This document shows positions 48,370 through 53,435 of a stretch of 64,000 nt of DNA, piece by piece. Under the pieces are notes generated by a model. It made no database searches and had not been told where the DNA came from. It saw nothing but the letters and a program-made list of their open reading frames with translations. Location of the stretch: contig NZ_FTNE01000002.1 in NCBI RefSeq assembly GCF_900156265.1, positions 62,001 to 126,000 of the forward strand, in the 5' to 3' direction. Position 1 is the first letter of the stretch; the number at the start of each line of letters is the position of its first letter. The DNA comes from Acidiphilium rubrum. Lineage in GTDB: Bacteria > Pseudomonadota > Alphaproteobacteria > Acetobacterales > Acetobacteraceae. A program made the translations under genes and the position numbers.

Positions 48370-48836
48370 GCGGCGCCGCACCCTATCATGACGACGACGC
48401 ACCGCCGCATGTGCCGCGCTGGGCGGTGATCGCGGCGGGGTGCCTCATGCTCGGCACCGTCGCCCTCGCGACAATTTCGCGCCTGACCACGCCTGATTAC
48501 AGCCTGCCCGCGGCCACCGCGCCGATCATGGCGGTCCGCTTCATCCAGACCGAGGCGCAGGCCCTGCTGGTGCAGAACGCCGCCACCGGCAAGCCCATCA
48601 CCACCATCGCGCCCAGCGCCGATGCCTTCCTGCGCACCACCCTGCGCACCATGATCGAGGCCCGCCTGGCCGATGGCTTCTCGCGCACCGCCCCGTTCCT
48701 GCTGATCCCCGCCGCCCACCATGTCCTGATCCTCGATGACCCCACCACCGGTGAGCACATCGACCTGCAGGCGTTCGGCCCCAGCAATTCCGGCCAGTTC
48801 AAGGCCCTGATGCTTCACAACGGAGACCGCTCATGA
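48366..48836 (+). CDS. puhC: Photosynthetic complex assembly protein PuhC
   Basis: A 156-aa protein with one transmembrane helix (about residues 20-38) and a periplasmic domain: after the anchor, RFIQTEAQALLVQNAATGKPI, SADAFLRTTLRTMIEARLADG and the C-terminal LQAFGPSNSGQFKALM. It matches PuhC in position, size and topology. PuhC promotes formation of the reaction centre/LH1 core. It overlaps both neighbours by four bases. Confidence 0.88.
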   Translation: MSGAAPYHDDDAPPHVPRWAVIAAGCLMLGTVALATISRLTTPDYSLPAATAPIMAVRFIQTEAQALLVQNAATGKPITTIAPSADAFLRTTLRTMIEARLADGFSRTAPFLLIPAAHHVLILDDPTTGEHIDLQAFGPSNSGQFKALMLHNGDRS

Positions 48837-49150
48837 TCGGCACCAAGCAACGCATCGATCTGCGCTGCCAGATCGACTTCGAACAGACTCCACAAAGCCT
48901 GCACGCCCACGCGATTCCGCAGGATGTCGAAATCTGGCCCGGCGATGAAATCCTGCTGCACGACGCGCCCGAAATGGTCGGCTTCGGCGAACGCCTGACC
49001 GGCGAATGCACCGCAACACTGCTCCGCGCCGGCCGCCTCGAACGCGCCTGGACGCAGTTCCGCTCGCTGTTCGAAATCGGCGAGCTCTACGAAGTCGGCT
49101 TCCAGCCGCTCGCAGACTTCAACATCGCCCCGACCCATACCGGAGTCTGA
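48833..49150 (+). CDS. Conserved hypothetical protein between puhC and acsF
   Basis: A 105-aa soluble protein, [20 protein letters not shown] at the start, followed by a predicted beta-rich segment ([23 protein letters not shown]) and a helical one ([23 protein letters not shown]). It overlaps puhC by four bases and lies four bases upstream of acsF. Genes of similar size are found at this point in other alphaproteobacterial clusters by my recollection, but I know of no assigned function. A role with the cyclase AcsF is a guess from coupling. Confidence 0.75.
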
Positions 49151-49154
49151 GATC

Positions 49155-50240
49155 ATGAACGCCATGACCAGCACGATCGCAGCACCCGGCGCCCACAGCG
49201 CGCCGAACGCCCAGACCGAAGCCGCGCAGAACAGCACCATGCTGAGCCCGCGTTTCTACACCACCGATTTCGCTGCCCTCGACAAGATCGACGTCGGCCC
49301 GATCCGCGATCAGTGGGAAACCCTGATGGCCGAGTTGAAGGCCGACCCCAACAAGGGTCACTTCGCCCGCACCGATGAATTCAAGGTCGACATCTCCGGC
49401 ATGCCCGAAGCGCTCCGCCGCGAGTTCCTCGATTTCCTGGTCAGCTCGGTCACCGCCGAATTCTCCGGCTGCGTGCTCTACGCCGAAATCAAGAAACGCT
49501 GCGGCAACGAAGATCTCCGCCGCCTGTTCGGCTACATGAGCCGCGATGAAGCCCGCCACGCCGGCTTCATCAACGAGGCGCTGCGCGACCTCAACACCCG
49601 TGTCGACCTCGGCTTTCTCACACGGGCGAAAAAATACCATTTCTTCAAGCCGAAATTCATTTTCTACGCGACCTATCTGTCGGAAAAGATCGGCTACGCC
49701 CGCTACATCACCATCTACCGCCAGCTCGAAGCCCATCCCGAACTGCGCATCCACCCGATCTTCAAATGGTTTCGCGAGTGGTGCAACGATGAATTCCGCC
49801 ACGGCGAAGCCTTCGCTCTGCTGATGCGCGCCAACCCGTGGATGCTGACCGGCATGAACAAGCTCTGGGTGCGGTTTTTCCAGCTCGCCGTGTTCGCCAC
49901 CATGTATGTGCGCGACCACGCGCGGCCCAATTTCCACGCCGCCCTCGGGCTCGACCCCACCGCGTACGACATGCAGGTGTTCCGCATCACCAGCAAAATC
50001 GCCCAGCAGGTGTTCCCGATCACGCTCGACATCGAAAACCCCGCCTTCCTCGCCGGGCTCGAACGCCTGCGGAAAATCGACGTCGCGAATCAGGCGATCC
50101 GCGACGTGCCGGGCATCGGTGCGAAACTCAAACGCGCCTCCTACGCCGTCCGCGCTGCCGCCAGCTTCGCGCGGCTCTATCTCATGCGCACCAAGGCCCA
50201 GGCACTGCCGGCCGACGTGCGCCTGCAACCCACCTGGTAA
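49155..50240 (+). CDS. acsF: Aerobic Mg-protoporphyrin IX monomethyl ester cyclase
   Basis: A 361-aa di-iron oxygenase. The iron-ligand pattern is visible: E102 and E111 in [17 protein letters not shown]132 and H135 in [10 protein letters not shown], and the second site in [17 protein letters not shown] (about 210-226). AcsF closes the isocyclic ring E using O2, in place of the oxygen-independent BchE, which is absent here, matching aerobic photosynthesis. It has a GGAG site and lies immediately upstream of the puhE-cobW gene. Confidence 0.96.
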
Positions 50241-50255
50241 GCCCAAGGACCCATC

Positions 50256-52199
50256 ATGAGCAACTACATCATCCCTGGACTGTTCGCCCTGTTCATCTGG
50301 TGGTTCAGCACCGGCGCGATCATTTTCCTCGATGGCCTGCCCCGGCCGACCTTCAAATGGAGCATGCTGGGTGCCACCACCGTTTTCGCCATCTGCGTGA
50401 TCGGGCTGGTGAAGGTCAGCGGCGAACAAACCGTCGCCGCCGCCTACTGGGCCTTCGGTTTTGGCCTGTTCGCCTGGGGCTGGCAGGAAATCAGCTTCTA
50501 CATGGGCTTCGTCACCGGCCCGCGCACCGCATCCTGCCCGGAAAACTGCAAGGGCTGGAAACATTTCGGCCACGCCATCCAGACCAGCCTGTGGCATGAA
50601 CTCGCCATCATCGGCTCGGCGGTCATCATCGTCGTCGCCACCTGGGGCCAGCCGAACCAGATCGGCGTCTGGACCTTCATGGTGCTGTGGTGGATGCACC
50701 AGAGTGCGAAGCTCAACGTCTTCCTCGGCGTGCGCAACCTGAACGAAGAGTTCCTGCCGGAACATCTGAACTTCCTGAAGAGCTTCCTCAAGCGCAAGCC
50801 GATGAACCTGCTGTTCCCGTTCTCGATCACCATCTCCACCGTGATCGGCACCATCATGTTCGAACACGCCGGCCGCGCCACCACGGGCTTTGCCCGCGCC
50901 GGCGATACCTTCATCGGCGTGATGATGGCGCTCGCCATCCTCGAACATTGGTTCCTCGTGCTGCCGCTGCCGGCCGCGAAACTCTGGAACTGGGGCCTGA
51001 AATCCCACAAGCCCGCACGCGCGTTCGACGTCGAAATCGTCGCCGGCTTCCTCGGCGCCGGCAAGACCACCTTCATGCGCCGCCGGCTCGACATGCTGGG
51101 CAATGTTCCGGTGGAAACCCGTGAAAAAACCGTCGTCCTGGTCAATGATTTCAGCACCGTCGGCATCGATGGCTCGCTGCTCCGCGGCCAGGGGGCGGAT
51201 GTGGTGGAACTGCCGAACGGCTGCATCTGCTGCACCCTGAAAAACGACCTCGCCAGCCAGTTGGAAGAAGTTGTCGGCAAATTCGCCCCCGACCGCGTGC
51301 TGATCGAACCCTCCGGCGTCGCCGATCTTGCTTCGCTGATCGGCGTGCTGGAACGCCCGGCCATCGCCCCGTTCAAGCGCAGCCTCTCGGTCATCACCAT
51401 GATCGATGCCAGCGCCTTCCTCGGCGATTTCGCTGAAATGCAGGGACATTTCACCGCCCAGGCCAAACTCGCCTCGCTGCTGATCGTCAACAAGACCGAT
51501 CTGGTCAGCGCCGCCGAACGCGACCTGGTCGAGGAAACCCTGCAACGCCTGAACCCGGATGTGCGGATCATCACCGCCCGCTACGGCTCGGTACCGGCCG
51601 AGGTTTTCGCGGCGACCACCAAAGCCCGCAAAGACCCCACCGCCGCCGATGACGAACGCGCCGCCACCCCCACGCCAACCGTGCGCCACGTGCAGGAATA
51701 CGAGGCCAAACCCGCACCGGTTCTCACCCCCAGCCCCGCAGCGGCCCCAACGCCGGCGCCGCAGCAAGTCAACCACGCCCCGCAGGCGCATAACCACGAT
51801 CACGCCCACGACCATGCCGCGCACGACCACGCGGCCTGCACCGATACCGGCTGCGACCACCCCGATCATCACCACGATCACGACCACGCCCACCAGGACG
51901 CACTCGGCTTCAGCTCATGGGCCGGCACGCTCGATAACATCTGCGACGCCGACGCCCTTCGCCACGTGCTCGATGCCGCAGCCGCCGGCAATTTCGGCAG
52001 CATCGCCCGGCTCAAAGGCCTCGCCCGCATCGGCCGCGGCTGGGTCCAGTTCGACATCGCCGGCCACCGCGCCAGCATGGGTGCCTTCGCCGCCCCGGCC
52101 GATGAGGAACCCCGCGTCATCGCAATCGGCCGCAACCTCGATGAAGCCGGCCTCGCCGCCGCCTTCGCCGGCTGCTCCATGCGCCTCGCGGCCGAATAA
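50256..52199 (+). CDS. puhE: PuhE fused to a CobW/COG0523 G3E GTPase metallochaperone
   Basis: One uninterrupted 647-codon frame. Residues 1-252 are a full-length PuhE (DUF3623) membrane protein with about seven helices, a photosynthetic complex assembly factor. Residues about 257-647 are a complete COG0523 GTPase: Walker A GFLGAGKTT (264-272), CICC metal motif (C323, C325, C326), EPSG (351-354), NKTD (412-415), then a linker with 15 His and 2 Cys between 506 and 546, and a C-terminal CobW_C domain. The fusion has no linker and no stop or start at the join, so it is not a simple gene overlap. COG0523 proteins deliver or insert Zn, Co, Ni or Fe with GTP. It has AAGGA upstream and lies between acsF and hemA. 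The metal and client are unknown; a role in Zn/Mg pigment metallation or Fe supply is inference. Confidence 0.9.
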   Translation: MSNYIIPGLFALFIWWFSTGAIIFLDGLPRPTFKWSMLGATTVFAICVIGLVKVSGEQTVAAAYWAFGFGLFAWGWQEISFYMGFVTGPRTASCPENCKGWKHFGHAIQTSLWHELAIIGSAVIIVVATWGQPNQIGVWTFMVLWWMHQSAKLNVFLGVRNLNEEFLPEHLNFLKSFLKRKPMNLLFPFSITISTVIGTIMFEHAGRATTGFARAGDTFIGVMMALAILEHWFLVLPLPAAKLWNWGLKSHKPARAFDVEIVAGFLGAGKTTFMRRRLDMLGNVPVETREKTVVLVNDFSTVGIDGSLLRGQGADVVELPNGCICCTLKNDLASQLEEVVGKFAPDRVLIEPSGVADLASLIGVLERPAIAPFKRSLSVITMIDASAFLGDFAEMQGHFTAQAKLASLLIVNKTDLVSAAERDLVEETLQRLNPDVRIITARYGSVPAEVFAATTKARKDPTAADDERAATPTPTVRHVQEYEAKPAPVLTPSPAAAPTPAPQQVNHAPQAHNHDHAHDHAAHDHAACTDTGCDHPDHHHDHDHAHQDALGFSSWAGTLDNICDADALRHVLDAAAAGNFGSIARLKGLARIGRGWVQFDIAGHRASMGAFAAPADEEPRVIAIGRNLDEAGLAAAFAGCSMRLAAE

Positions 52200-52223: not shown

Positions 52224-53435
52224 ATGAACTACGAAACTTTCTTCACGTCCGGGCTCGACCAACTCCGAAAGGAAGGCCGCTACCGCGTGTTTGCCGACAT
52301 CGAACGCCACGCCGGCAACTTCCCGCACGCCACCCAGTACGGCGAAGGCGGCGAACGCCCCGTCACCGTCTGGTGCTCGAACGACTACCTCGGCATGGGC
52401 CAGCACCCCACCGTGCTCAGCGCGATGCACGCAGCCCTCGACAAATGCGGCGCCGGCGCCGGCGGCACCCGCAACATCGCCGGCACCAACCACTACCATA
52501 CCGTGCTCGAACACGAACTCGCCGATCTGCACGGCAAAGACGCCGCCCTGCTGTTCAACTCGGGCTATATGTCGAACTGGGCCTCGCTCTGCACCCTCGC
52601 CCATAAACTGCCCAACTGCGTCGTCCTGTCCGACGCGCTCAACCACGCCTCGATGATCGAAGGCATCCGCCACAGCCGCGCCCAATGCGAGGTTTTCGCC
52701 CATAACGACCCCGCCGACCTCGCCCGCAAACTCGCGGCCATCGATCCCGCGCGCCCCAAACTGATCGCCTTCGAATCAGTCTACTCAATGGACGGCGACG
52801 TCGCGCCGATCGCCGATATCTGCGATGTCGCCGACCAATACGGTGCGATGACCTACCTCGATGAAGTCCACGCCGTCGGCCTGTACGGCCCGCGCGGCGG
52901 CGGCATCTCTGAACGCGACAACAACGCCCACCGCCTCACCGTGATCGAAGGCACCCTCGCCAAAGGCTTCGGCGTCATCGGCGGCTACATCACGGGCTCG
53001 ACCGCGCTGTGCGACTTTGTCCGCAGCTACGCCTCCGGCTTCATCTTCACCACCGCGCTGCCACCCATGGTCGCCGCCGGCGCGCTCGCCAGCATCCGTC
53101 ACCTGAAGTCCAGCAGCGCCGAACGCGACCGCATGCACGACCGCGTCGCCCGCCTGCGCGCCAAACTCACCCGCGCCGGGCTGCCCCACCTCGAAAACCC
53201 CAGCCATATCGTCCCCGTCATGGTCGGCGACCCGGTCCAGTGCAAAACCATCAGCGATACCCTGCTCGATCGCTTCGGCATCTACGTCCAACCCATCAAC
53301 TACCCCACCGTCCCCCGCGGCACCGAACGCCTGCGCCTCACCCCCTCACCCCTGCACACCGACGCCGATATCGACCACCTGGTCGACGCCCTGGCCACCA
53401 TCTGGCACGAAATGTCGATCCAGTTGGCGGCTTGA
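52224..53435 (+). CDS. hemA: 5-aminolevulinate synthase
   Basis: A 403-aa PLP enzyme of the alpha-oxoamine synthase family. The PLP lysine is K247 in [14 protein letters not shown]; other motifs are [43 protein letters not shown] and [17 protein letters not shown]. It condenses glycine and succinyl-CoA to ALA, the entry to haem and bacteriochlorophyll synthesis. A second copy for housekeeping haem may exist elsewhere. It is the last gene of the rightward bch/puh operon and has GGGAG upstream; a nested palindromic element follows. Confidence 0.97.

Follow-up and report, generated by a model that had tools for sequence, protein, structure and literature searches.

A single polypeptide encoded in the photosynthesis gene cluster of Acidiphilium rubrum joins PuhE, a photosystem assembly factor, to a complete GTPase of the COG0523 family, and we propose, with a probability of roughly 0.6, that this fusion works as a metallochaperone anchored in the membrane and devoted to aerobic anoxygenic phototrophy. 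According to this proposal PuhE, with its seven transmembrane helices and cytoplasmic C-terminus, would be the anchor or adaptor at the place where bacteriochlorophyll is made and the reaction centre is assembled. The G domain would bind a divalent transition metal at its CICC motif in the GTP state and, after GTP hydrolysis, the metal would pass to a client on the cytoplasmic side of the membrane, with the His-rich linker feeding or buffering the metal and the CobW_C domain docking the client. Our tentative candidate for this client is the diiron cyclase AcsF, with Fe(II) as the metal. PuhE and COG0523 proteins are both known kinds, and it is their joined, photosynthesis-dedicated membrane form that we did not find described: the preliminary description of this DNA knew of no such fusion, and a literature search, whose coverage mostly excluded subscription papers, likewise found none.

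The fusion gene and its neighbourhood

The features discussed below are collected in Table 1, with positions given in the window, that is, the whole stretch of 64,000 nucleotides that was analysed. The open reading frame of the fusion begins with ATG and has no internal stop codon. Pfam profiles recognized, in its product, DUF3623 at residues 1-253 (6.8e-110, 366.7 bits), cobW (4.9e-40) and CobW_C (4.7e-10), and the NCBIfam model for PuhE, TIGR03055, matched residues 7-248 with a score of 324 bits, where the cutoff is 164. All three G-domain motifs, namely Walker A, CxCC and NKxD, lie inside a single G domain. Thus, the presence of a complete PuhE and a complete COG0523 GTPase in one frame, as first noticed from the sequence, is confirmed, and the motifs and the His and Cys counts given at that time proved exact. 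No in-frame ATG, GTG or TTG occurs in the window within the 19 codons preceding Walker A, which makes it unlikely that a complete G domain is translated on its own. Chance and a frameshift or assembly artefact were also ruled out, since about 40 other loci show the same architecture in a single open frame and the fusion is under purifying selection.

Table 1. Features of the fusion gene and its neighbours in the window.
Feature	Position	Strand	Basis
Small conserved orf between puhC and acsF	48833..49150	+	conserved position
acsF, aerobic Mg-protoporphyrin ester cyclase	49155..50240	+	TIGR02029, 473 bits (cutoff 192.5)
puhE-cobW fusion gene, 647 aa	50256..52199	+	ORF, Pfam/NCBIfam; architecture repeated in about 40 other loci
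PuhE (DUF3623) domain, residues 1-254, predicted 7 TM, N-out/C-in	50256..51017	+	Pfam, NCBIfam, positive-inside count
C94-x3-C98-x4-H103-x2-H106 motif, third loop of PuhE, GTPase (cytoplasmic) side	50535..50573	+	
G3E/COG0523 GTPase domain (cobW), residues 259-439	51030..51572	+	Pfam, AlphaFold2, Foldseek
Walker A GFLGAGKTT, residues 264-272	51045..51071	+	
CICC metal motif, residues 323-326, predicted	51222..51233	+	
NKTD guanine-specificity motif, residues 412-415	51489..51500	+	
His/Cys-rich disordered linker, residues 506-546, 15 His and 2 Cys	51771..51893	+	count; low pLDDT
CobW_C domain, residues 552-640	51909..52175	+	Pfam; kept alone in L081 and L100
hemA (5-aminolevulinate synthase), downstream of the fusion	52224..53435	+	

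The AlphaFold2 model of the fusion (mean pLDDT of 81) consists of seven membrane helices, the G domain, a mostly disordered linker (residues 467-547, with pLDDT below 50 across most of it) and CobW_C. Together with positive-inside counts, the seven helices give an N-out/C-in topology, which would place the GTPase on the cytoplasmic side of the membrane. When PuhE was modelled alone (pLDDT of 91), a fold search returned no significant match in the PDB. DUF3623 was once grouped by Pfam in the TmAT acyltransferase clan and has been removed from it (PMC12423673); we also reject this assignment, given seven helices against the ten of the TmAT fold and the absence of a PDB fold match. Residues E78, H114, E115, N134, E230 and H231 of PuhE are invariant in every covering row examined, fused or unfused, and might form a metal or pigment site within the membrane.

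The genes around the fusion form the series bchM-lhaA-puhABC-orf-acsF-puhE-hemA, in which the fusion sits between acsF and hemA, in the standard place of PuhE after acsF within the puhABC-orf-acsF-puhE cluster. The small orf that precedes acsF, which had no Pfam or NCBIfam match, is possibly bciE, the alphaproteobacterial cyclase subunit, judging by its position; it was not detected at the Pelagibius, Roseospira and betaproteobacterial loci. The downstream gene was rejected as an obligatory partner, as hemA was not found beside the fusion in Aurantimonadaceae. Two cases, L088 and Lichenibacterium, have an acsF that does not neighbour the fusion. In Lichenibacterium minor (L083) the fusion stands isolated, with no puh gene or acsF within 10 kb; the same contig does carry acsF, at a distance of about 350 kb.

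Distribution, probable single origin and stepwise decay

Approximately 40 intact single-frame fusions were found at distinct loci in Acetobacteraceae, Aurantimonadaceae and other alphaproteobacteria. Many genera of Acetobacteraceae have the fusion, at least ten coded genera in its intact form, and many are without it. In a scan of named genomes the carriers were Acidiphilium, Acidocella MAGs, Lichenicoccus roseus, Jiella, Aurantimonas, Fulvimarina, Pararhizobium mangrovi, Lichenibacterium minor and several MAGs; within Acidiphilium, all seven PuhE-bearing genomes have it. The fusion is also present on contigs assigned to Ferrovum, Kouleothrix and Croceicoccus, which may be mis-binned. One genome (G065/G747) has two copies, on contigs C86 and C107.

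Both halves of the protein fit a single fusion event followed by stepwise decay, as suggested by three lines of evidence. First, a single subclade of the PuhE tree, in which many branches are weakly supported, contains all fused and decayed forms. Second, the 43 fused GTPases lie on one side of a branch with SH-aLRT support of 99, opposite 18 unfused COG0523 proteins. Third, a search of 385 alphaproteobacterial genomes at E<=1e-30 recovered members of this GTPase subfamily only when fused to PuhE, with no close unfused kin.

The steps of decay observed are loss of the CxCC motif (L030/L032/L098, L112 and L086, the last from Roseospira marina), loss of the G domain with retention of the linker and CobW_C (L081 and L100), and reduction to a remnant (L068 and L072). 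In three rhizobial loci inside the fusion clade (L095, L101 and L104) PuhE has a short His-rich tail alone, which looks like the residue left after loss of the GTPase. In Jiella pelagia (L080), whose genome is complete, the fusion is interrupted by a frameshift that falls within the G domain. As four intact fusions have a linker poor in His, the His-rich character of the linker is dispensable.

Estimates of selection are in agreement with a role for the metal motif. In pairs with an intact CxCC, dN/dS of the G domain ranged from 0.02 to 0.22, close to the value for PuhE, and the linker was relaxed. In the single CxCC-less pair on the other side of this contrast (L030/L032), dN/dS reached 0.42 in the G domain, against 0.16 in PuhE and 0.18 in CobW_C. 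We read this combination, constraint with CxCC and relaxation in the one pair lacking it, as suggesting that the G domain is retained for the sake of its metal motif.

Candidate clients of the fused GTPase

The top Foldseek match of the GTPase part was a COG0523 protein, the Zn-bound YjiA of E. coli. All curated equivalog cutoffs of the family in NCBIfam lie above the scores of the fused GTPase, which reached 104.4 bits for the cobalamin-related CobW (TIGR02475, cutoff of 332.1) and 94.2 for ZigA (NF038288, cutoff of 600). Profile scores left its nearest kin in the family unresolved, although CobW is not the nearest. The same genome also encodes a true CobW, scoring 517 bits, and a YjiA-like paralog; therefore, the fusion was rejected as the B12 CobW of this organism. 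By analogy with the family, the fused GTPase is expected to bind metal and to switch with GTP.

To our knowledge, no account exists of iron supply to AcsF, of the insertion of iron into the reaction centre or of the function of PuhE. A single chain that joins photosystem assembly to a GTPase for metal delivery offers a candidate for each of these roles, and for the zinc of Acidiphilium. The choice of AcsF, a membrane-bound diiron protein (PMC7319587), draws on gene content. Wherever an intact fusion could be checked, acsF was present, either beside it or at another site of the genome, and Roseospira marina, alone among the fusion genomes in having no acsF, has lost CxCC. Iron supply to AcsF, which the preliminary description had offered as an alternative, survives on these grounds. 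The anaerobic cyclase BchE was found with 8 of 36 intact and 6 of 8 degraded fusions (raw Fisher p of 0.008, not significant in independent pairs), a pattern that weakly favours a role where AcsF is the sole cyclase. Against the proposal, no BchE was detected with the CxCC-less L112 or the G-domain-less L100, and acsF stands apart from the fusion in the two cases given above. The GTPase would also not be essential, since it is missing from many relatives that have AcsF and presumably still make bacteriochlorophyll.

Alternatively, the GTPase could act in cis, loading Zn or Fe into the C94-C98-H103-H106 loop of its own PuhE in the manner of IcmF, which we consider rather unlikely. The loop and the GTPase share one side of the membrane, and its four residues are intact in all 40 intact fusions with data and disrupted in one of the two G-domain-less forms (L100) and one of the two remnants (L072). 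In unfused PuhE, C98, H103 and H106 tend to come and go together (22 with all, 28 with none and 16 partial). However, all four residues are also intact in 22 of 66 unfused PuhE proteins, and are common in unfused relatives like Magnetospirillum, Rhodoplanes and Rhodopila; the motif predates the fusion, and we reject it as a fusion-specific site; moreover, CxCC-less fusions retain it, and independent pairs were uninformative.

We give less credit to the idea that the GTPase is a chaperone or guard of the Mg-chelatase subunit BchH, excluding wrong metals or presenting the metal as CobW may do for CobN. The BchH of the superoperon matches CobN models, and cobW usually adjoins cobN and bears a His stretch (PMC2770081), as most fusions do. 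Nevertheless, the fused GTPase is no CobW orthologue by the scores given above, a thiol site is ill-suited to Mg, and BchH is present with or without the fusion. Similarly improbable is assembly of the non-haem iron of the reaction centre, or generic zinc buffering at the membrane, in place of service to a pigment enzyme. PuhE is named as a photosynthetic complex assembly protein in TIGR03055, and CobW_C and the His linker outlast the G domain in L100, which would suit such functions; yet every reaction centre needs that iron, and most PuhE proteins are unfused.

The preliminary description had linked the fusion to zinc-bacteriochlorophyll, and we followed its relationship with zinc producers through residue 168 of PufL, Glu in Acidiphilium and His elsewhere, which we take to be a marker of the zinc pigment. 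Glu168 was found in all six Acidiphilium fusion genomes checked and was limited to this genus. Every other fusion genus checked has His168, except Pelagibius, where Met occupies the position in the MAGs whose loci carry a decayed CobW tail (L068, L072 and L081). His168 together with an intact fusion occurs in at least ten genera other than Acidiphilium (G104, G074, G092, G024, G055, G068, G226, G098, Aurantimonas and Fulvimarina), and therefore the fusion does not track the zinc pigment and is present in Mg-bacteriochlorophyll phototrophs as well, an outcome that the preliminary description had itself named as counting against the link. Acidisphaera sp. L21 lacks the fusion in the named-genome scan, and its genus is reported to make zinc-bacteriochlorophyll conditionally (PMC12654162). 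Thus, although the route by which zinc enters the bacteriochlorophyll of Acidiphilium is stated to be unknown (PMC7242693), delivery or exchange of zinc by the fusion is very unlikely, and any role of this kind must have been co-opted late, within Acidiphilium. Least probable of all is a neutral hitch-hiker, a GTPase without photosynthetic role on its way out. Repeated decay and loss in several lineages could suggest this, but the G domain is widely retained and, in CxCC-bearing lineages, under strong purifying selection.

What stands from the original suggestion is the tethering of metal handling to the membrane site of pigment synthesis or reaction-centre assembly, still the best reading given the joint decay of CxCC and the G domain and the cytoplasmic GTPase predicted by topology; its zinc-pigment component does not stand as a general account. 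A more specific version, in which the fused proteins are a COG0523 subfamily tethered to the membrane and exclusive to photosynthesis, supplying the metal of AcsF, or of PuhE or the reaction centre, with possible co-option for zinc pigments in Acidiphilium, is one we hold only tentatively. If true, no metallochaperone dedicated to the biogenesis of a bacterial photosystem would have come before it. The fusion points to an undescribed metal-delivery step in the building of the aerobic photosystem, and it would give a chaperone family with few known clients a branch that is anchored in the membrane and serves one pathway.

Comparison with known systems

The fusion shares with standard PuhE (TIGR03055/DUF3623) its full length, a score well above the cutoff and the place after acsF; standard PuhE extends no more than some tens of residues beyond its last helix, whereas about 390 residues follow the PuhE part in the fusion. 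With COG0523 proteins, such as YjiA, ZigA/ZagA, CobW, Nha3 and ZNG1, it has in common Walker A, CxCC, NKxD and CobW_C and, in most members, a His-rich stretch as in the metallochaperones of this family, unlike which the fused GTPase follows a seven-helix photosynthesis assembly protein. One of these relatives, Nha3, acts as an iron chaperone (PMC9164220). The CobW of aerobic cobalamin synthesis is likewise a GTPase with CxCC and a His stretch, and a chelatase homologue, BchH, is encoded in the operon of the fusion. Lastly, IcmF, in which the G3E chaperone MeaB is fused to its client enzyme, a mutase (PMC9164220), is an earlier example of a G3E chaperone in covalent linkage with its client; unlike the fusion described here, it is soluble, and its MeaB handles adenosylcobalamin instead of metal ions.
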